DNA from: Ahniella affigens
GTDB taxonomy: Bacteria > Pseudomonadota > Gammaproteobacteria > Xanthomonadales > Ahniellaceae
DNA: 64,000 nt
Assembly (NCBI RefSeq): GCF_003015185.1
Contig: NZ_CP027860.1
Coordinates: forward strand, 3,648,501 to 3,712,500
Reading direction: 5' to 3'
Numbering within the stretch: position 1 is the first letter of the stretch; the number at the start of each line of letters is the position of its first letter. A program made the translations under genes and the position numbers. The notes beneath the pieces were generated by a model. That model saw nothing but the letters and a program-made list of their open reading frames with translations, had not been told where the DNA came from and made no database searches. This document shows positions 28,932 to 39,739 of the stretch, one piece after another.

Positions 28932-31900
28932 TTACGAGAGATTCCGACCACGCTGCCAGGCAAAGCCCAGCAGCGTCAGCACCAGCAGGATGAGGCCAAC
29001 TCGGTCCAGCGCCGGGACGGTGGCTGCGATGTTGATTCCCGTAGCCTGATTCGGTCCAACCAGATTCGGGTCATCGGTGACACGCACCGTTTCGTTGCTG
29101 CCGTTGCCATCCAGATCGGTATTGATCGTGCCTTGATTCAGGATGGTGCCGCTCGCATTGCTGTTGATCGTCGCCGGAATGGTGATGGTCACCGAAGCGC
29201 CACCCGCCAGCGTGCCGTCCCAATTGATCGTGTTCGCGACATTGGTGACGGTGCCGAGGCTGGCAGTGGGCGTGCCGCCGGTGATGCCAGCAGGCAACAC
29301 ATCCACGAACTCGAACCCAGCATTGTTCGCTTGCGCGCCATTGCCAGCGTTGGTCAACACGATCGTGTACGTAATCGCGCCACCCGGGACAAACGTGCCG
29401 GTCACCGACTTCGTGCCCGTCACATCCGGCGTACCGCTGACCTGAGTCTGATCGGTTGCCGAGTTGTTGGCCGGATTCGGATCACTGCCACCACCCGTGA
29501 CGCTGATCGTGGCCGTGTTGGACACTGTCGCGTTGACCACGGCACCACTCAACACGCAGGTCGCCGTGTAGGTCACGGTATCGCCGACTGGCAACGACAC
29601 CGTGTCACCAATGGTGCCACTGCCGCTCGCCGTGCAGGTCGCACTGCCGGTTGCCGCACAGGTCCAGTTGAAGCTCGCGCACTCGGCTGGAGCAGCATCG
29701 GCGACGGTCGCGCCGGCTGCACTCGGGCCACTGTTGGTGCCGACGATGGTGTAGGTCAGGGTCGCGCCAGGGGCCACGGTGGTCTGGCCATCGGTCTTCG
29801 TGATCGCCAGATCGGCGCTAACCGCGAGGGTGTCGGTATCCGTGGCGGAATTGTTCGCCGGCGTTGGATCTGAGACCCCCGCTGGCGCAGTCACCGTCGC
29901 AGTGTTGACCAGCGAACCAGTCGCCGCTGCACTGATCGTGCAACTGGCGGTGTACGTCACGCTGCCGGCAATGGGCAGATTCACCGTATCGTTGATGTTG
30001 CCAGAGCCTGAAGCCGTACAGGTGCCGCCACCTGCACCAACGCAGGTCCAGGTGCAGGTCAGCGCCGCCGGGAACGTGTCGGCAACCGTGCTCCCTGACG
30101 CAGCGCTCGGACCGGCATTGCTGGCCGTGATCGTATAGGTCACCGAGCCGCCCGGTGTTGCAGTCGTCACGCCGTCGGTCTTGGTGATCGCCAAATCGGC
30201 GTTCAATGCAATCGTGTCGGTATCCGTCGCACTGTTGTTGCCGGGCGTCGGGTCGGTCACACCGCCCGCAGCGGCAACGGTTGCCGTGTTGGTCAGTGAC
30301 CCTGAGGCCAAGGCGCTGACCGTGCACGATGCGGTATACGTGACACTGCCGCCAGCAGGCAAATTCACCAAGTCGTTGATGTTCCCGGAGCTCGCGGCGG
30401 TACACGTGCCACCGCCCGCGCCAACGCACGTCCATGAACACGTCAGCGATGCCGGGAACGTATCCGCGACCGTGCTGCCCAGCGCATTGCTTGGGCCGGC
30501 GTTGCTGGCCGTGATGGTGTAAGTCGTCGAACCGCCAGGCGTCACGGATGTCACGCCATCGGTTTTCGTGATCGACAGGTCCGCCTCGACCGCAATCGTG
30601 TCGCTGTCAGTCGCCGAGTTATTGCCCGCGTTCGGATCCGTGACACCTGCCGGCGCCGCCACCGTCGCCGTATTGCTCAACGTTCCAGTCGCCGCCGCAC
30701 TGATCGCGCATGAGGCCGTATACGTCACGCTGCCGCCCGCCGGCAGATTGGCCGAATCGTTGAGATTGCCACTGCCGGACGCCGTGCAGGTGCCGCCACC
30801 GGCGCCAACGCAGGTCCAGGTGCAGGTCAACGAGGCCGGGAAGGTATCAGCGACCGTCGCGCCCGGCGCATTGCTCGGGCCCGGATTGCTGGCCGTGATC
30901 GTGTAGGTCGCCGAGCCCCCTGCCACGACGCTGGTCACACCATCGGTCTTGGTGATTGACAGATCGGCTTGCGGGGTCAGGGTGTCGGTATCCGTTGCGC
31001 TGTTGTTGGGTGGATTCGGGTCTGTAATCCCGCTGCTCACCGTCGCCGTATTGCTGAGCGTACCCGTCGCGCTGGCGCTGATTGCACAGCTCGCGGTGTA
31101 AGTCACGCTGCCGCCAGCCGGCAGATTCACCGCCGTGTCGTTGATATTGCCGGAGCCAGACGCTGTGCAGGTGCCACCACCGGCACCCACGCAGGTCCAG
31201 TTGCAGGTAAGGATGGCTGGGAACGTGTCCGCCACGGTCGCCCCAGTGACGGGGTCGGGCCCCGCATTCGAAGCCGTGATCGTATAGGTGACCGACCCTC
31301 CAGGAACCGCACTGGCAACGCCGTCAGTCTTCGTGATCGACAGATCCGCCGACAACGCTCGGCAGGCGGTGATGGTCACATCGTCAACCGCCAAGCCAGC
31401 GAATTGCACCGAGGTATCGCTGTCCACATGAAACCGCAATTCTGTATTCAGACCCGCAAGACTGTCGGCCCGCCGCGAGAACACGCCCCAGCCCGCCGCG
31501 CTGCCAATGTTGACCTGTGGGTTGCCGGTTCCGGATGACGCACTGATATAGGTCGGGTCCTTCCAATCGAAGAGGCGCACCGGCGTGGCGCCACCAACTT
31601 GCTGGAAGTCGACAAAGAAGTGATCGAAGTTCGCCGTCTCGACCTGATGACTTTGCGCCCACGTCACGACCACGGGCGGGCTCAAGCCAGCCAAATTGAC
31701 ATTCGGCGAGAGCAAGTCCTGATTGCTGCTGGCGTTGTACGTGTTATCGAGATCGGTTTTCCAGCAGTTCACGCCGCTATTGCACGTTGAGAACGGCGCG
31801 ATCGGATTCGCCGTGGTCGTTGCCACGGTTGCGGGCAGACCGAGCTCCCATTCGTCCTGCGCGCCTGAATGCGTGAAGCCGGCGGATCCCGACTCAAAAT

Positions 31901-33488
31901 CGGTGGTGTAAACCGTCTGGGTCGTGAAGCCAGGCGCGCACGTTGGTGCGGGGACCGGCTCGCACACACGCAAGCCCCACGATGTGAGCGTGCCGCCGTT
32001 GGCGCCAGCGGTGTCGTCGCGCAGGTCCAGAGTCCACGTGCCACCGGCATTCTGGCCATCGAAATGCGACAACCGATACGCACCCGAGGTGCTGGCCGTG
32101 CCGGCCGTTGAATTGTTCTCCGGCTTCAATTGCGTACCGCGAAATGAGGTGAACGCCGGTGGAATTCCGGCCTCATCATCGAACACCACATCCATCTGGG
32201 TCTGGCCACCGGTCGCGGCGGCGCCAATGTCGGTAAACAGGCCGTTGTCGCTGCCTGCAGGCGAGCGCAAGTGCGCGTCGATGTCTTGCATCAGCGCATG
32301 ATTCAGCACCAGATCGACGTCCAGATCGGCAATCCGCGGGTTGCCCGGGATCGTCAGCGTAGACGACACGAGTCCCGTACCCGGGCCAATCGTCTTCGGC
32401 ACATCCGTCGACATGTAGGTGGTGCAGTTGACGCCTTCCTGGGTCGCCGGGCGCACACTGACGCTCAAATGGTAGGTCGAGGTGGCGCCACCAACGGCGG
32501 CCGACGCGGAATCCACAAATGCGAAGTAAGTACCGGCCGTCTTGACTGTCATGAAGAAGGCTTCCGACGGCAGATTCGGAACGGGCGAAACATCGCCCGT
32601 TCCCGCGTCGTCGACCACGAGAATCTGGTTGCCGGCATCGCCGAAGAGCGCAAAGCCCAGGCGGCCGTTCCAGCTCACGCCATCGCGTTCTGGATCCACA
32701 TCCAGACTCAGAAAGACCGTATCACCGGCGTTTAGGGGAAAACTGAACCAGTCTTGCTCGGTCGCGGCTGCCGGGTTGCGGGTACCACTAACCCAGCCAT
32801 TGGCGGGCAGGACATTGGCCGTAGCCGGCGTGTCATTCGCCTCGACTTCCGGCGTCGGCGCACCGGATTGCACGCGGAGGTGCAACTCGTACGGGCGCTC
32901 GGACGTGGTGCCAGCGGTAAAATCGTTGACCCGCAAGAAATAAGTGCCCGTGGTCGGAATGGTCGCACCGGCAATGGATGACGAGAGGCCCGCAAACGAG
33001 CCGTTGTCATCGTCGAATTCAATGAGTGTGGTGCCGTCCGACGCGAACAATCTGAGCTGGCTGTCGGTACTGCTTCCGGCTGACGCCGACGTCATCGTTG
33101 CCGCGTAGACGCGGTCACCCGCATTGGCGGTGAAGCTGTAGAAGTCAATATCGCCGTTCGGATACAGATCGCCCTTGACGACCAGATCTGTGCTGGCGAG
33201 CGGGCTCGCCGTGGCCGAAGTGCCATTCGGCTCCACTTCGCTGGCATAGCCTTGTCCAGCGGGGAAGATCGGCTGCGCGTACTTGAGGCCGGCGGGTAGC
33301 GTGAAAGGCGCCGCAGCGCGTTCAGGCACCTGACCCTTCTGTGCGCCATCGTCCAGAACCTGATTGATCTCGACCGCGGCCGAAACCGTGCCGCAGCACA
33401 GCACGCCCGCCCAGATCACTACCCGGCGCATCCATGCACGACCGTTCTCCAGGCTGCGCTGCGGCAGCCCGCCTGTTCCACTCGTCAT
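28932..33488 (-). CDS. Giant secreted DUF11-repeat protein with P-domain and anchor-like C terminus
   Basis: Predicted surface or secreted protein of about 1,518 residues from the ATG at 33488 (GGGAAGG just upstream); a later Met at 33431 gives a tighter signal peptide (RRVVIWAGVLCCGTVSA). In order, with rough positions: two bacterial pre-peptidase-C-like domains (EVEPNGTSATA at 84 and PEVEANDTPATAN near 215), a proprotein-convertase P-like beta domain (about 350-500), a jelly-roll-like region, then five DUF11 repeats each opening with ADLSITKTDG or a close variant, plus a divergent sixth (PDVTGTKSVTG). The C terminus VPALDRVGLILLVLTLLGFA then WQRGRNLS resembles an IPTL-CTERM sorting signal. 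No catalytic domain was seen, so adhesion or surface structure is likely. Confidence 0.85.
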   Translation of the reverse strand: MTSGTGGLPQRSLENGRAWMRRVVIWAGVLCCGTVSAAVEINQVLDDGAQKGQVPERAAAPFTLPAGLKYAQPIFPAGQGYASEVEPNGTSATASPLASTDLVVKGDLYPNGDIDFYSFTANAGDRVYAATMTSASAGSSTDSQLRLFASDGTTLIEFDDDNGSFAGLSSSIAGATIPTTGTYFLRVNDFTAGTTSERPYELHLRVQSGAPTPEVEANDTPATANVLPANGWVSGTRNPAAATEQDWFSFPLNAGDTVFLSLDVDPERDGVSWNGRLGFALFGDAGNQILVVDDAGTGDVSPVPNLPSEAFFMTVKTAGTYFAFVDSASAAVGGATSTYHLSVSVRPATQEGVNCTTYMSTDVPKTIGPGTGLVSSTLTIPGNPRIADLDVDLVLNHALMQDIDAHLRSPAGSDNGLFTDIGAAATGGQTQMDVVFDDEAGIPPAFTSFRGTQLKPENNSTAGTASTSGAYRLSHFDGQNAGGTWTLDLRDDTAGANGGTLTSWGLRVCEPVPAPTCAPGFTTQTVYTTDFESGSAGFTHSGAQDEWELGLPATVATTTANPIAPFSTCNSGVNCWKTDLDNTYNASSNQDLLSPNVNLAGLSPPVVVTWAQSHQVETANFDHFFVDFQQVGGATPVRLFDWKDPTYISASSGTGNPQVNIGSAAGWGVFSRRADSLAGLNTELRFHVDSDTSVQFAGLAVDDVTITACRALSADLSITKTDGVASAVPGGSVTYTITASNAGPDPVTGATVADTFPAILTCNWTCVGAGGGTCTASGSGNINDTAVNLPAGGSVTYTASCAISASATGTLSNTATVSSGITDPNPPNNSATDTDTLTPQADLSITKTDGVTSVVAGGSATYTITASNPGPSNAPGATVADTFPASLTCTWTCVGAGGGTCTASGSGNLNDSANLPAGGSVTYTASCAISAAATGTLSNTATVAAPAGVTDPNAGNNSATDSDTIAVEADLSITKTDGVTSVTPGGSTTYTITASNAGPSNALGSTVADTFPASLTCSWTCVGAGGGTCTAASSGNINDLVNLPAGGSVTYTASCTVSALASGSLTNTATVAAAGGVTDPTPGNNSATDTDTIALNADLAITKTDGVTTATPGGSVTYTITASNAGPSAASGSTVADTFPAALTCTWTCVGAGGGTCTASGSGNINDTVNLPIAGSVTYTASCTISAAATGSLVNTATVTAPAGVSDPTPANNSATDTDTLAVSADLAITKTDGQTTVAPGATLTYTIVGTNSGPSAAGATVADAAPAECASFNWTCAATGSATCTASGSGTIGDTVSLPVGDTVTYTATCVLSGAVVNATVSNTATISVTGGGSDPNPANNSATDQTQVSGTPDVTGTKSVTGTFVPGGAITYTIVLTNAGNGAQANNAGFEFVDVLPAGITGGTPTASLGTVTNVANTINWDGTLAGGASVTITIPATINSNASGTILNQGTINTDLDGNGSNETVRVTDDPNLVGPNQATGINIAATVPALDRVGLILLVLTLLGFAWQRGRNLS
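29796..31340. repeat. Four ~384-bp in-frame repeats inside the DUF11 gene
   Basis: The anchor TTCGTGATCG or TTGGTGATCG recurs at 29796, 30181, 30565, 30949 and 31330, giving intervals of 385, 384, 384 and 381 bases. The units are highly alike in DNA, not only in protein, which points to recent duplication or gene conversion and makes copy-number change likely. Confidence 0.85.
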
Positions 33489-33868
33489 AACCTTCCCCGC
33501 GTCAACTTGCCACAATGGCAATTCCCGATTCGCATCGTATCGTTGTGAAATCCCCTTGTTCAAGCACATTGTGAAGGATTTCGCATTGAGTCCCGGCCGC
33601 CGCGAACCAACCTCGACCACACGCCCCGTGCTGTTGTCAGAACCCAACTGCCAAAGGCTCCAACCGGGGGTGGATGCGCGGAAAATGCAGTCGCTCGGTT
33701 AACTGGTTGCTGCGGTCACATTCCAACTCGTCAGGTCGATAACATGGAGGTTTGAACGCGCTTTCATCGCCCGGATCGGTCCGGCAGTGACTGACTTCGG
33801 TACGGCCAGGCATATCAACCAAACCAATCTGCCGGGAGCAGGCGGGCCGAGATCGGTAGAATGCCGTC
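33489..33868. other. Divergent intergenic region, nothing named
   Basis: This 380-bp gap separates the divergent DUF11 protein and TauE/SafE genes and must hold both promoters. I see no clear operator, RNA gene or conserved reading frame in it. Confidence 0.5.
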
Positions 33869-34727: not shown

Positions 34728-37136
34728 TTGGCCGAGCGATTCCAAATTGCCATTGTCGGATCTGGCCCGGGTGGGCTGAGTGCGGCGTCCAGGGCTGCCG
34801 AGATCGGCGTCTCGCATGTGCTGCTCGAAGCCGAGCCGCATCTGTCGAACACCATCTACCGCTACCAGAAGGGCAAGCACGTCATGGACGAGCCCGGCAT
34901 TCTGCCGCTTCGTTCGCCGCTGGAGTTCAAGGCCGGTAGTCGCGAGACGATCCTTTCGGCCTGGAATGACGGCGTCGCCCGGCTGAATGTCAATGTCCGT
35001 CACGGTCATGAGGTGACCAAAGTCCAAGCGCAACCTGGCGGCGGATTCCTGCTTGAGTGTGGCAATGGCGCCCAGTTCCTGGCTGACCGGGTGGTGCTCG
35101 GCATTGGCTTGCAGGGCAACATCCGAAAACTCGGTGTGCCGGGCGAGGACCTGCCCTTCGTCCAGTATCAACTCGATGATCCGGGCGCCTATTCAGGCGA
35201 GACTATTGTGGTCATTGGTGCCGGCGACGCGGCCATCGAGAATGCGATCGCGCTCGCGAAGCAAAACACGGTCATCGTGATCAACCGTCGTGACGAATTC
35301 GCCCGCGCCAAGGAGGGCAACCTGCGCGGCATTCTGAAGGCGATCGAGGACGGCACCATTCAGTGCTACTACAACACAGCACCGGAGAAAGTGGAGGCGC
35401 TGACCGTTGGCCGCAAGAAAGGCCGCATGATGCTGCAGACCCCACAAGGTCGCGCGCAGATTTTGATCGACCGGGTCATTGCCCGCCTCGGCGCGTCGGC
35501 ACCGCGCGGGTTTGTCGAAGGCTGCGGCGTCAAGTTTCCGAACAAAGACCCAGCTGCTGTGCCGGCGATCTCGCCGCAATACGAATCGAATGTCCCGGGT
35601 CTCTATATCGTCGGCGCGCTGGCCGGGTATCCGCTGATCAAGCAGGCCATGAACCAGGGCTATGAAGTGGTCGAGTACATTCTCGGCCGCACAGTCGAGC
35701 CCGCCGATGAGCCCTTGCTGCGCGACAAGCTCAAGAACGTGCCGAACTTCCGCAGCGTCGACGCATTCATTGCCGATATCCAGCGCAATGTGCCTCTGCT
35801 GGCGCAAATCACGCCGCTGCAGTTGCGCGAATTTCTGCTCGACTCCGACATCCATGCGCCCCGCCCCGGCACCCCCGTGTTCGAGAAGAACGACTACACG
35901 AACACGTTCTATTCGATCGTCGAAGGTGAGGTCGAGGTGATTGTCGATGCGGCGCAGAACAAACGCATCAAACTCCGCCGTGGCGAATTTTTTGGCGAAA
36001 TGGGTCTGATCTCGGGGCGTCGCCGCGCGGCAACGGTGGTGGCCGGGCCAGGCGCTGTACTGATTGAAACACCGCGGCGCTCGATGAACCGATTGATTCA
36101 GTCGGTCGAGGCCGTCAAGCGCGAAATCGACAAGGTGTTCATTGCCCGTGCGCTGCAATCCCGATTTACGCCCGAGTCGCCGATCGAACGGCTCAACGAG
36201 GTCGTCGAGAGCGCGCGCATCGTGCAGTTCAAGGCCGGCGATGTGGTGTTCAATGAGGGCGACGTGGGCGACTGCGTGCATCTGATCCGGCGTGGCTCGC
36301 TGACGATCTCGCGGCAAATCGGCGGCAAGGAAGTGGTGTTGTCCTACGTTGCCGCTGGCAACTACGTTGGCGAGATGGCGCTGCTGGGCGACAATCGTCG
36401 TTCGGCCACGGCCAAGGCTGCCATTGCCACCGAGACCATTCGTTTGGACGGCGACGCGTTCAAGCGCCTGTTCCAGCGCGACCCGCTGCTCCGAGCACGT
36501 CTGCAGTCGGAATACTCCAATCGCACGGCGTCCAATCTAGCCATGCAGCAGATGCCGGCAGGTGGCGACATCATCTCGTTCCTGATTGCCCAGGGTGCTG
36601 GTGAGGCCACCGACATCCTGCTGATCGACGAGGCGTTGTGCGTCCGCTGCGACAACTGCGAGAAAGCCTGTGCCGAAACCCACGGCGGCACGTCGCGCCT
36701 TGACCGGGAGGCAGGACCCACGTTTGCCAACGTCCATGTCCCGACCTCGTGCCGACACTGCGAACATCCGCACTGCATGAAGGATTGCCCGCCGGACGCG
36801 ATTCACCGTGCCCCGAATGGCGAAGTATTCATCGCCGACAACTGCATTGGTTGCGGGAACTGCGAGCGGAATTGCCCCTATGGCGTGATTCATCTGGCCG
36901 CAAAGCCCCCCAATAAACCGGGGTTGCTGTCCTGGCTGTTGCTTGGCAACGGCCCCGGCCCGGGCGAAGCGCCGTATGATCCGAAAGCTGCAAAAGGCAG
37001 CGAGAAAAAGGCGGTCAAGTGCGACATGTGCAAAGACCTCAAAGGCGGGCCCGCCTGTGTGCGTGCTTGTCCGACCGGCGCCGCCATCCGTATTGGGCCG
37101 GAGAAGTTTCCGTCCTACGCACGCGACCGGAGCTGA
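34728..37136 (+). CDS. Flavin oxidoreductase / tandem cNMP-binding / four-[4Fe-4S] fusion
   Basis: Predicted cytoplasmic electron-transfer protein of 802 residues. Residues 1-320 form a thioredoxin-reductase-like fold with FAD motif GSGPGG (11-16) and NAD(P) motif GAGDAA (164-169), but without the redox CXXC. Two cyclic-nucleotide-binding domains follow (about 375-460 and 490-585). The second has the phosphate-binding cassette GEMALLGDNRRSATA, while the first has GEMGLISGRRRAAT. The C terminus (638-785) carries 16 cysteines in four groups like DmsB/NrfC subunits: CVRCDNCEKAC, CRHCEHPHCMKDC, CIGCGNCERNC, and CDMC with CVRAC. The start is TTG at 34728 with GGAG six bases upstream. It would pass electrons from NAD(P)H to the membrane protein encoded six bases downstream. 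Confidence 0.85.
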   Translation: MAERFQIAIVGSGPGGLSAASRAAEIGVSHVLLEAEPHLSNTIYRYQKGKHVMDEPGILPLRSPLEFKAGSRETILSAWNDGVARLNVNVRHGHEVTKVQAQPGGGFLLECGNGAQFLADRVVLGIGLQGNIRKLGVPGEDLPFVQYQLDDPGAYSGETIVVIGAGDAAIENAIALAKQNTVIVINRRDEFARAKEGNLRGILKAIEDGTIQCYYNTAPEKVEALTVGRKKGRMMLQTPQGRAQILIDRVIARLGASAPRGFVEGCGVKFPNKDPAAVPAISPQYESNVPGLYIVGALAGYPLIKQAMNQGYEVVEYILGRTVEPADEPLLRDKLKNVPNFRSVDAFIADIQRNVPLLAQITPLQLREFLLDSDIHAPRPGTPVFEKNDYTNTFYSIVEGEVEVIVDAAQNKRIKLRRGEFFGEMGLISGRRRAATVVAGPGAVLIETPRRSMNRLIQSVEAVKREIDKVFIARALQSRFTPESPIERLNEVVESARIVQFKAGDVVFNEGDVGDCVHLIRRGSLTISRQIGGKEVVLSYVAAGNYVGEMALLGDNRRSATAKAAIATETIRLDGDAFKRLFQRDPLLRARLQSEYSNRTASNLAMQQMPAGGDIISFLIAQGAGEATDILLIDEALCVRCDNCEKACAETHGGTSRLDREAGPTFANVHVPTSCRHCEHPHCMKDCPPDAIHRAPNGEVFIADNCIGCGNCERNCPYGVIHLAAKPPNKPGLLSWLLLGNGPGPGEAPYDPKAAKGSEKKAVKCDMCKDLKGGPACVRACPTGAAIRIGPEKFPSYARDRS

Positions 37137-37142
37137 GCTGCC

Positions 37143-38048
37143 ATGCCCATGCATGAATCGATTTTCGATGCGTCGCGCTATCGCTATCTCTGGGTCTCCC
37201 TGACGCTGTCACTCCTGGCCATCGTGTTGTATGTCTGGCATGACCCCATCGGCGTACCCAACGGCGGCAGCTGGCTTGGCTACACGCTGGGCACGATTGG
37301 TGCGCTGCTCATTCTGTGGCTGATGTGGTTTGGCATCCGAAAGCGCAGCTACAGCAGCCGGATGGGCACGCTGCGCGGCTGGTTGTCGGCGCATGTGTAC
37401 CTCGGCACGACGTTGATCCTGATCGCGTTTCTGCATAGTGGCTTTCAACTTGGCTGGAACATCCACACGCTGGCACTGATATTGATGCTGTGCGTGATCT
37501 TCAGCGGCTTTTTTGGCGTCTATGCCTACGTGCGGTATCCGGCAATGATGACCCGGAATCGCGACAGTGCAACGCGGCAATCGCTGCTCGATGAAATTGT
37601 CGACCTGGACGCCCAGGCACTGGGGTTGGCCGACGCGGTCGATCCGAAAGTGCACGCCGTGGTTCTGCGGTCGATTGAACGCACCCAGATTGGCGGCGGT
37701 TTCCAGAAGCTGATGCGCCCGGACACCGAAACCGACAACGCGCTCGATCAGGTCAAACTGTTCATGGAGCAGCGCGAGAAGGGGGCCCAGCCTGGACCGA
37801 AAAAAGAGATGTCGACGATGTTTGCGATGGTCGATTTTCTTTCTGCCGGGAGTGCCGACAACAAAGCCGACGCGCTCCGGAAGTTGCTCGATGTGCTGGC
37901 GCGAAAGCGCTCGCTGACAGGTCGCATTACCCGCGACTTGCAACTGCAGGCGCTGATGGAGGCCTGGCTCTATGTGCACATACCGTTGTCGTTTGGGTTG
38001 CTGGCCGCATTGAGCGCGCACGTGATCTCTGTCTTCTTTTATTGGTGA
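37143..38048 (+). CDS. Membrane protein with di-haem cytochrome b histidine pattern
   Basis: Inner-membrane protein of 301 residues with about five hydrophobic helices (roughly 15-32, 45-66, 82-101, 108-130, 276-300) and a long charged loop at 135-270. Two helices each carry a pair of histidines 14 residues apart: H84/H98 (in SAHVYLGTTLILIAFLHSGF) and H279/H293 (in VHIPLSFGLLAALSAH). This is the spacing used to stack two haems b across a membrane. It lies between the Fe-S fusion gene and the cytochrome c gene with gaps of 6 and 8 bases, so it probably links cytoplasmic and periplasmic electron carriers. Haem binding is inferred. Confidence 0.72.
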   Translation: MPMHESIFDASRYRYLWVSLTLSLLAIVLYVWHDPIGVPNGGSWLGYTLGTIGALLILWLMWFGIRKRSYSSRMGTLRGWLSAHVYLGTTLILIAFLHSGFQLGWNIHTLALILMLCVIFSGFFGVYAYVRYPAMMTRNRDSATRQSLLDEIVDLDAQALGLADAVDPKVHAVVLRSIERTQIGGGFQKLMRPDTETDNALDQVKLFMEQREKGAQPGPKKEMSTMFAMVDFLSAGSADNKADALRKLLDVLARKRSLTGRITRDLQLQALMEAWLYVHIPLSFGLLAALSAHVISVFFYW

Positions 38049-38056
38049 GGTGAGCG

Positions 38057-39739
38057 ATGCGTTGGCAGATCCTGCGTGTCACCCAGCAAGCCAAAGCCGG
38101 CAGCAGCGTTGAAGAGGACATCCACTTTGGCGACACGCTGACGATTGGTCGCGGCGCCGATCAAGCGATCTACCTCCCCGACTTGCGAGCGGCACTGTCG
38201 CACTGTGCGGTAACCGTCACGGGTAAGGGCCGCTATCACGTCAAATCACTGATTGTTGCGGGCGTGCGCGTCAACGGGCAGATCGTCCAGGACGCTGATG
38301 TCGGCGCGGGTGCGGTGATCGAACTCGGTGGTACGCGACTGACACTCATTGCACCACCGCGTGACTACGATGGCGCCGTCGAAATCACCCCGATGGCGGC
38401 CAGTGAAGTCGAAGACAACGCGCAACGTTTCATCGGCAAGCTGACTTTGTCAGAAACACGCCTCAGCAAGCGCTGGCCATCGTGGATTCTGTTCCTGGGC
38501 GTCGGCTTCTTCGCGCTGCTGCTGCCCTTGCTTGCTCACTATGTACCGGCCGGGCGCCCGGTGCTGGATAAATTGCCAATTGGTTCGCGCGACACATGGC
38601 AGGCCGGTTCGCTTGCGTCTGCACACCATTTCTTCGGCGAGAACTGCACCATGTGTCACGACGGCGGTTTCGCCACCGTCAAAGACTCGGCGTGCAAGAC
38701 CTGTCACGCCAACGTCGGCGCGCATGCCGATGAGAAGCGGTTTGCGTTAGGCACCCTGGGTGATGCCGACTGCGCCCACTGCCATCGCGATCACAATGGT
38801 CTGGAGGCGTTGGTGCGCGCGGATCAGGAGTTGTGCGCAGATTGTCACCGGGACCTGCCCGCGCGCGAGAAAAACGCGAACAAACAGCTGGACGCAGCCG
38901 ATTTCGGCACGCACCATCCCGGATTCATGGTCAATCTGCCGGCCTGGAATGTGGATGGCCAGTTCACCCCCATCCGCACCGCGTTGGCCAGCAGCGATCT
39001 GACTGAAAACTCCGGCTTGAATTTCCCGCATGACTTGCATCTCGCCGCCGAGGGGATTCGAGGCCCGGATGGTGACGAGGTTCTGAAGTGTGAGACGTGC
39101 CATCAACCGGAGCCGGGCGGCGCGCGGTTGCGCCCGATCGATTTTGAAGCGAACTGCCAACGCTGCCACCGGTTGACGTACTCGATTCGCGAAGCAGATC
39201 GCCAGGTCACGCATGGCAAACCCGCCCTGATGAAAGCCGAGATCGAAGAGTTCTTTGCGCGCGAGGCGTTGGAGGGCGGCTTCAATGATGTGAATGCGCC
39301 AACCGTGGTGCGGATACGCCGCCGCCCGGGTCAGCCCATCACCCCGCAGGAGCGTGCCGAGGCGTTGTCTTGGTCGCGGCAACAAGCCGGCCAGGCGATC
39401 GACAACTTGTTCAACAGCAATGCGTGCACCTATTGCCACACCGTCAAGACCGATCAACTCGGCAATTTGGACGTGGCACCGGTGCGCGTGTCCGGATTAT
39501 GGTTTCCCAAAGCGCGCTTCTCGCATCGTATGCACGACAGCATGAAATGCGAGGATTGCCACAAAGCCCGTGAGTCGGATCGCAGCACGCAGGTGTTGAT
39601 GCCTGATATCGACAACTGCCGGCAATGTCACGCTGGCGAACACGCGGACGACAAAGTGCCGAGCACCTGCATCACCTGCCACGGCTATCACGAACCCCGT
39701 CTTGATCTGAACGCCCAAGGACTTCCCGAACTACGATGA
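38057..39739 (+). CDS. FHA-domain / decahaem cytochrome c fusion
   Basis: Protein of 560 residues. An FHA domain spans about 25-100, with LTIGRGADQAIYLPD and the Ser-His pair in AALSHCAV. A single membrane helix (about 142-162, WILFLGVGFFALLLPLLA) follows. The rest, expected in the periplasm, holds ten CXXCH haem-attachment motifs: CTMCH, CKTCH, CAHCH, CADCH, CETCH, CQRCH, CTYCH, CEDCH, CRQCH and CITCH. FHA domains read phosphothreonine, so this could tie electron transfer to kinase signalling; two Ser/Thr kinase genes lie in the window (44714, 62413). Topology with the FHA inside and haems outside fits the helix. I do not recall this fusion as a described protein. Confidence 0.83.
   Translation: MRWQILRVTQQAKAGSSVEEDIHFGDTLTIGRGADQAIYLPDLRAALSHCAVTVTGKGRYHVKSLIVAGVRVNGQIVQDADVGAGAVIELGGTRLTLIAPPRDYDGAVEITPMAASEVEDNAQRFIGKLTLSETRLSKRWPSWILFLGVGFFALLLPLLAHYVPAGRPVLDKLPIGSRDTWQAGSLASAHHFFGENCTMCHDGGFATVKDSACKTCHANVGAHADEKRFALGTLGDADCAHCHRDHNGLEALVRADQELCADCHRDLPAREKNANKQLDAADFGTHHPGFMVNLPAWNVDGQFTPIRTALASSDLTENSGLNFPHDLHLAAEGIRGPDGDEVLKCETCHQPEPGGARLRPIDFEANCQRCHRLTYSIREADRQVTHGKPALMKAEIEEFFAREALEGGFNDVNAPTVVRIRRRPGQPITPQERAEALSWSRQQAGQAIDNLFNSNACTYCHTVKTDQLGNLDVAPVRVSGLWFPKARFSHRMHDSMKCEDCHKARESDRSTQVLMPDIDNCRQCHAGEHADDKVPSTCITCHGYHEPRLDLNAQGLPELR

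Follow-up and report, generated by a model that had tools for sequence, protein, structure and literature searches.

Three adjacent genes in a 64,000-nucleotide stretch of the Ahniella affigens genome (NCBI RefSeq assembly GCF_003015185.1, contig NZ_CP027860.1, positions 3,648,501 to 3,712,500 of the forward strand; the whole stretch is referred to here as "the window") encode a flavoprotein with two cyclic-nucleotide (cNMP)-binding domains and four [4Fe-4S]-type cysteine groups (A), a membrane protein with paired histidines (B), and a decahaem cytochrome c with a forkhead-associated (FHA) domain (C). They belong to a set of seven genes that is larger and more widespread than a three-gene view of the locus would allow, and that recurs in Pseudomonadota. 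We propose, as a reading we hold with about equal belief and doubt, that the seven proteins would make up an electron-transfer system spanning the cell envelope, with A-B-C as its inner-membrane half. A cyclic nucleotide would switch A, and the FHA domain of C would act as a docking piece. The genes and their parts are as follows.

34728..37136, + strand: gene A, flavin adenine dinucleotide (FAD)/NAD(P) oxidoreductase with two cNMP-binding domains and four [4Fe-4S] motifs (802 residues, TTG start)
34740..35660, + strand: A, FAD/NAD(P)-binding part, residues 5-311, TrxR/YpdA/FNR-like, no CXXC (Pyr_redox_2)
35871..36137, + strand: A, first cNMP-binding domain, about residues 382-470 (boundaries approximate); cassette Gly423, Glu424 and Arg433 invariant
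36222..36482, + strand: A, second cNMP-binding domain, residues 499-585; cassette Gly548, Glu549 and Arg558 invariant
36639..37070, + strand: A, sixteen cysteines in four [4Fe-4S]-type groups, residues 638-781 (motif scan and alignment)
37143..38048, + strand: gene B, five-helix membrane protein, predicted di-haem b cytochrome (301 residues; WX3HX13H twice, SGXXG)
38057..39739, + strand: gene C, FHA domain, one helix and decahaem cytochrome c (560 residues)
38141..38329, + strand: C, FHA domain, residues 29-91, without the Ser and Asn seen in aligned FHA domains (PF00498)
38480..38536, + strand: C, membrane helix, residues 142-160 (hydropathy)
38645..39682, + strand: C, ten CXXCH motifs, residues 197-542 (invariant in 35 aligned proteins)

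Composition and conservation of A-B-C

In the window, A and B are separated by 6 bases, and B and C by 8. A preliminary description of this DNA, made from the sequence alone, had reported three genes in a row with these gaps and this composition, and the coordinates, domains and motifs agree with it. To follow the genes beyond the window, relatives of A were taken from a scan of genome contigs, from which the 80 best loci, out of at least 563 relatives, were kept; this sample leans to close relatives. Residue conservation was read from hand-chosen alignments of 32 A, 54 B, 35 C and 29 E sequences (E is one of the partners described below), with one locus (L031) left out of the C alignment on account of a stop codon.

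Gene A matches Pyr_redox_2/3, cNMP_binding (PF00027, 122.5 bits over two stretches) and PF13247 (44.2 bits; cut-off 26.2). Its cysteine groups span residues 638-648, 675-687, 706-716 and 765-781, and all 16 cysteines are invariant in the 32 aligned proteins. None of these proteins has a CXXC in its first 330 residues, and the score of A for the curated YpdA family is below the cut-off (110.7 versus 339.9 bits). Because the flavin domain is of the TrxR/FNR-like type but lacks CXXC, an electron-transfer role fits A better than a disulphide role. Full-length A occurs once in the window's genome.

Gene B has five predicted hydrophobic helices. Its AlphaFold2 model (pLDDT 87.1, pTM 0.80) places helices at residues 7-32, 44-66, 77-99 and 107-140, followed by a long helix at 239-300; the first HX13H pair, H84/H98, lies in the third of these helices and the second, H279/H293, in the long final one. 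Nine residues are invariant in the 54 B proteins: W80, H84, H98, S121, G122, G125, W275, H279 and H293. B is predicted to be a di-haem b cytochrome, of no family that we could match: Pfam (at E 0.01, including PF01794, the NOX/ferric reductase family) and NCBIfam gave no hit, the best match of the sequence in the PDB had E 0.43, and Foldseek with the model returned nothing at E 0.001. PDB searches with a B profile, an E profile and the sequence of the partner F likewise gave nothing better than E 0.07.

Gene C combines an FHA domain (PF00498, 26.9 bits; cut-off 20.7) with ten CXXCH motifs. In 2000 shuffles of its sequence, the mean number of CXXCH was 0.043 and the maximum 2. Ten are found in 42 of the 45 C open reading frames (ORFs) called in the loci; the other three have 7 (L031), 7 (L073) and 3 (L079), the first having a stop codon within the match and the last two running into a contig end. 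Since the cysteines of A, the histidines of B and the CXXCH motifs of C are invariant in the alignments, we regard them as cofactor ligands rather than chance occurrences. C scores 48.5 bits as a protein against PF14522, a family whose search of the window's own genome matched only inside the partner G and not in C.

The A-B-C order is found in 60 of the 80 loci, and in 5 others the end of the contig falls within B. In the remaining 15, B does not adjoin A. Fourteen of these were searched as whole records (L069 was left out), with B recovered in all 14 and C in 13; 12 of these C genes adjoin B, one is on a separate contig (G012), and C was not found in the genome of L039. The 14 searched loci without an adjoining B are therefore not true absences. 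The order in 60 of 80 loci, together with the genome profile described below, also leads us to reject the idea that the three genes are chance neighbors. Spacing is another matter. The preliminary description had proposed asking whether order and spacing are kept in other genomes; the order is, but distances between matches in the 60 loci range from 3 to 999 for A-B and from 5 to 581 for B-C, so the 6-8 base spacing is not a fixed trait.

A seven-gene set

Clustering of the neighbors of A revealed four further recurrent families, D, E, F and G, characterized by Pfam searches on their members. D is a protein of about 680 residues with HbpS-like domains. E, of about 600 residues, matches no Pfam family; its model (pLDDT 69.7) is an 18-stranded barrel, for which AlgE is the nearest structure (Z 29.8, 364 residues aligned, root-mean-square deviation (rmsd) 3.0, 17% identity) and OprD-type channels come next. 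F, of about 1250 residues, has LVIVD repeats (in the F of L044 and that of the window's genome) and ten CXXCH in 10 of the 11 ORFs longer than 1000 residues. G, of about 440 residues, has four CXXCH and a cytochrome c554 domain (PF13435). The F and G of the window's genome have ten and four CXXCH, respectively; BLAST between F and G gives short matches only, the best of them at the haem motifs. At least 46 of the 80 loci have D, 47 have E, 33 have F and 21 have G. These counts are lower bounds, owing to locus flanks of 8 kb and a greedy ORF caller. The caller masked members in some loci, with A itself called in 68; in L097 and L099, B and C were masked by longer opposite-strand ORFs, and both genes are present by direct search.

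The complete set can be contiguous. In L101, whose genome belongs to the class of the window's, A-B-C-D-E-F-G is unbroken on one strand. In L098, B-C-D-E-F-G forms one run, with A after G on the same contig (L054). D-E-F-G-A or E-F-G-A occur together in several contigs, betaproteobacterial where labelled, and B and C precede D in both such contigs inspected (L098 and L097; in the contig of L097 they lie at C15:44997-47465, just before D). Genes for CcmE, CcmF, a CcmH/CycH-like protein and Cytochrom_C_asm (by Pfam) adjoin the cluster in L097, as do ORFs that look similar to cytochrome c maturation genes, judged by eye, in L102.

The window's genome holds the complete set, split over separate places: D-E-F is at C1:2452331-2460522 and G at C1:965673-966977. 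A gene for IspG (GcpE) precedes D by about 7 kb, and an IspG homologue (73-78% identical) is upstream of A in 9 of the 80 loci, all labelled as of the Lysobacterales type. The proximity of IspG to D in one case and to A in the other suggests that A-B-C moved from an ancestral site near IspG and D-E-F.

The distribution of A, C, F and G was profiled across 303 genomes of the window genome's class, with thresholds that differed between queries (E 1e-100 for A, 1e-30 for C, 1e-60 for F and 1e-40 for G). A was found in 14 genomes, C in 14, F in 12 and G in 14. A and G occupy the identical 14 genomes (Fisher p 2e-24), A and C share 13 (p 9e-21), and the 12 genomes with F all lie within the set with A (p 9e-20); these values are not corrected for kinship among the genomes. 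In one genome of the profile in which F was not found (G105), two tetrahaem G-like genes stand in tandem directly before A-B-C (L096:12089-19899).

The preliminary description had presented the three genes as a possible conduit. They do occur together, but the idea that A-B-C is complete by itself is rejected, given that D-G co-occur with it; the set comprises seven genes, and D-G would extend it to the outer membrane.

A proposed path for electrons

Building on the domains, the conserved ligands, the predicted folds of B and E, the gene clusters and the phylogenetic profile, we infer the following path. A would take electrons from NAD(P)H in the cytoplasm and pass them from FAD to its four Fe-S clusters, with its activity set by cyclic nucleotide on the two cNMP domains. 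If the predicted haem sites are occupied, B would carry the electrons across the inner membrane by way of two b haems. C, presumably anchored by its one helix, would accept them on ten c haems in the periplasm, and this topology would leave its FHA domain in the cytoplasm, as a docking piece rather than a phosphothreonine switch. From there, in a carrier order that is our best guess, G (tetrahaem) and F (decahaem, with LVIVD repeats) would take the electrons onward and, alongside the barrel E and protein D, serve a putative terminal acceptor at the outer membrane or close to it. An outward direction is probable on the basis of typical potentials and the type of flavoprotein. The continuous path from NAD(P)H to the periplasm that the preliminary description had drawn is therefore plausible, with carrier order and direction as its conjectural parts. 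Transfer to the outside of the cell is put forward more cautiously, because an 18-strand barrel such as E is usually a solute channel.

Signal inputs

In all 32 aligned A proteins, Gly, Glu and Arg are present in both cNMP cassettes; the proteins other than the window's are 54-76% identical to it. E424/R433 and E549/R558 are the residues that we take to be those of the phosphate-binding cassette. Cyclase-like genes lie near A in 10 of the 80 loci, equivalent to 10 of the 64 loci that have at least 3 kb upstream. Pfam searches on six of these genes recognized CHASE2-cyclases in three and a lone cyclase domain in the other three. The genes of L066 and L072 run cyclase, TPR protein, FecR protein, A, as judged by cluster membership and Pfam on the members. 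Together, the invariant cassettes and the nearby cyclase genes support a cyclic-nucleotide input to the conduit, one of two regulatory inputs proposed at the outset, and we consider it likely. The TPR protein between the cyclase and FecR genes in L072 (L072:5024-6373) has a weak Slam-like match (SlipAM, 21.9 bits; cut-off 22) and could help place D on the surface.

The other proposed input, phosphothreonine sensed by the FHA domain of C, fares differently. G31-R32 is kept in 35 of 35 proteins. In the window, Ala46 and Ala68 replace the Ser (of SxxH) and Asn (of STNG) of aligned FHA domains, positions that were guided by weak PDB matches to TB39.8 and GarA (E 0.014-0.04), in which we take this Ser and Asn to contact phosphothreonine. 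Across the 35 rows of the alignment, position 46 is not Ser in at least 32, and Asn occurs at position 68 in 3. In the complete seven-gene locus L101, C starts without an FHA domain, 19 bases after B. Lastly, a Ser/Thr-kinase motif was seen once among the 80 loci. On these three grounds, phosphothreonine gating was rejected as unsupported, and we consider such an input unlikely.

Comparison with described systems

The closest relatives by description are PCC3 and PCC4, predicted porin-cytochrome complexes whose inner-membrane protein, according to He et al. 2017 (PMC5566968), has five helices with WX3HX13H on transmembrane helices 3 and 5 and SGXXG on helix 4. In PCC3, this protein of about 300 residues has the same signature as B, and multihaem cytochromes (MHCs) and an outer-membrane barrel are in the cluster, as is the case here (PMC5566968). 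The haem numbers differ. The periplasmic MHC of PCC3 has a median of 21 haems and the extracellular MHC, which is rich in repeats, a median of 34 in the account of He et al. (PMC5566968), and the latter has 10-35 in Gallionellaceae according to Hoover et al. 2023 (PMC10734462). Compared with a periplasmic MHC of about 21-27 haems in PCC3, the present set has 10 CXXCH in C, 10 in F and 4 in G. Moreover, the present set has cNMP, FHA, HbpS-like and LVIVD parts, none of which is mentioned in the passages that describe PCC3 (PMC5566968).

PCC3-like loci also occur in genomes that carry the present set. Two such loci (L103 and L104) contain a 297-residue protein with two HX13H, a 24-haem MHC and a second many-haem MHC; L104 also encodes a protein that matches a barrel below threshold. 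B is 31% identical over 164 residues to the PCC3-like membrane protein of L103 (E 8e-9), and 33% over 131 residues to that of L104. Both loci (L103:1-6222 and L104:3139-10596) include a divergently transcribed Fer4-FAD protein, to which the flavin part of A is 31% identical over 275 residues in L104. The presence of this A-related protein hints that NAD(P)H may also be the electron source of PCC3, an idea that does not appear in the passages describing PCC3 (PMC5566968).

PCC4 subgroup II resembles the present set in having a porin, several MHCs, the same inner-membrane signature and other redox-active genes (PMC5566968). A PF13247 Fe-S gene is upstream of its inner-membrane-protein gene; A likewise precedes B, but here PF13247 is fused to FAD and cNMP domains. 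The MHCs of PCC4 have 4, 5 and 10 haems, whereas the seven-gene run of L101 has 4, 10 and 10, with no pentahaem ORF in the 20-kb stretch. The terms "cyclic", "FHA" and "forkhead" are absent from the main text of PMC5566968. Because haem numbers and accessory domains differ from the descriptions in that paper, we file the present set as neither PCC3 nor PCC4; it belongs to the porin-cytochrome kind, as a variant and not as a separate category.

A second multihaem cluster in the window's genome (L095:14165-18946, corresponding to C1:756164-760945) encodes a pentahaem cytochrome, a putative outer-membrane barrel of 570 residues, and a paralogue of G with four haems. This combination brings to mind the PCC4 core of "4 and 5 haem plus porin"; no decahaem or inner-membrane partner was seen in the stretches inspected. 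About 4.5 kb from it is a gene for a cNMP-rhodanese protein.

Gene C has a possible counterpart by description. Table 1 of Hoover et al. 2023 (PMC10734462) includes a decahaem cluster (403) annotated "Forkhead-associated protein", present in 27 of 87 iron-oxidising Gallionellaceae. The entry names neither partners nor a topology or function; the likeness to C consists of ten haem motifs and an FHA annotation.

Among better-known systems, MtrCAB/CymA and MtoAB share with the present proposal a trans-envelope multihaem relay with an outer-membrane barrel. They have a quinol-fed inner-membrane cytochrome and a larger barrel, whereas entry here would be through NAD(P)H-flavin/Fe-S and the barrel is AlgE-like. 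Their decahaem cytochromes belong to the DmsE family (TIGR03508), for which C scores far below the cut-off (20.4 versus 192.2 bits); the F of the window's genome has no match to this family at E 0.001, and part of the F of L013 scores 18.6 bits. The Ext operon of Geobacter (ExtM/ExtI) has a multihaem cytochrome distantly like F and a porin-like partner, with scores against the ExtM family (NF040943) of 57.6 bits for the F of the window's genome and 80.7 bits for that of L044 well short of the cut-off of 800. NADPH oxidases and ferric reductases pass electrons from NAD(P)H to flavin and then to two b haems across the membrane, as would A and B; they differ in that B lacks PF01794, the flavin/Fe-S part is a separate protein here, and the acceptor would be a decahaem cytochrome in place of oxygen or iron.

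A non-exhaustive search of published papers by title and start of abstract turned up no description of the set. The preliminary description, which knew of no described system of this composition, is borne out to that extent, but should be read beside the predicted PCC3 and PCC4 systems, which are of the same kind, and the Gallionellaceae FHA-decahaem cluster, which is a precedent for C.

Alternative explanations

Several observations weigh against the trans-envelope, cyclic-nucleotide-switched system proposed here. Cyclase genes are near A only in a minority of loci, several of which share one arrangement, and the single PF00211 match in the window's genome lies at a distance from A-B-C. The lipobox-like motif of D is found in 26 of 42 members, including that of the window's genome, and not in the D of L101. 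In the profile, F was not found in G042 and G105 though A, C and G are present, C occurs without A in G228, and A occurs without C in G243 (88% complete). Comparison of the B model with cytochrome b561 (4o6y, VIA) gives Z 7.7 over 135 aligned residues with rmsd 3.0, and unrelated helical bundles score equally or higher. Finally, the AlgE/OprD-like barrel of E has the fold of a solute channel and looks narrow for sheathing a decahaem cytochrome; MtrB has 26 strands.

That last point bears on a different use of the same parts. E could import a small solute, which F and/or G would convert in the periplasm, with A-B-C feeding or draining electrons and none leaving the cell. The likeness of E to AlgE/OprD solute channels (Z 29.8, 364 residues, rmsd 3.0) speaks for such an enzyme system, as do the cytochrome c554 domain (PF13435) of G and the distant relationship of F to ExtM (57.6 bits; cut-off 800), part of a selenite/tellurite operon that includes the porin-like ExtI (PMC5877670). 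But Pfam recognizes no catalytic domain in F or G beyond the haem domains and LVIVD repeats, and D, with its HbpS-like domains, is not obviously needed by a periplasmic enzyme; overall, we think this rather unlikely. Electrons might instead flow inward, as proposed for PCC3/PCC4 in Fe(II) oxidisers, from an external donor through F/G/C and B to quinone or, via A, to NAD(P)+. Against uptake, Fe(II) or Mn(II) could reduce NAD(P)+ only in a strongly uphill reaction, and the cluster has no recognized subunit for energy coupling; in addition, several of the records that carry A are labelled with genera known to be aerobic heterotrophs. B does have the WX3HX13H/SGXXG signature of the PCC3/PCC4 inner-membrane proteins (PMC5566968) and is homologous to the inner-membrane protein of PCC3-like loci, and the decahaem "Forkhead-associated protein" cluster is found in iron oxidisers (27 of 87 Gallionellaceae; PMC10734462). 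PCC3 itself is reported as down-regulated on Fe(II) in Sideroxydans ES-1 (PMC8788666), and we judge uptake improbable.

A further alternative concerns the gate and not the path: the cNMP and FHA domains would be inherited scaffolding, and the conduit constitutive, with no signal gate. cNMP folds can lose ligand binding, and the FHA domain lacks the aligned Ser and Asn and is missing from one complete locus. Against such decay stand the Gly, Glu and Arg of the cNMP cassettes, present in all 32 proteins, and the cyclase genes in the vicinity of A in 10 of the 80 loci. We treat an ungated conduit as a minority possibility.

Implications

Conduits of Gram-negative bacteria have mostly been described as quinol-fed and controlled at transcription. 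The stronger form of our proposal, which we advance tentatively and regard as doubtful, is a quinone-independent conduit, found in many Pseudomonadota, that draws directly on NAD(P)H, is throttled by a second messenger, and couples the redox state of the cytoplasm to an acceptor in the periplasm or on the cell surface. Some of its carriers would be genera in which extracellular electron transfer is not known; in some lineages, the second messenger would be made by the co-encoded cyclase. If true, a second messenger would act directly on electron export, through an NAD(P)H flavoprotein with two intact predicted cyclic-nucleotide sites, and such chemistry would reach bacteria outside those known for it. 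With seven genes as a signature and a tight phylogenetic profile, the question can be put to the test in cultured isolates, among which carriers include Tahibacter, Dokdonella, Solimonas and Alcanivorax, and metagenomes can be searched with the set as a marker.

Other features

Directly after F in the window's genome (L085:16520-18126) are two genes with overlapping ends, encoding GmrSD_N-domain and HEPN-domain proteins, which are possibly a defence or toxin-antitoxin pair. Within the window, upstream of a TauE-family gene, positions 28932-33647 on the minus strand encode a surface-type protein of 1571 residues, in which six DUF11 stretches occur along with one P-domain and one PPC domain.

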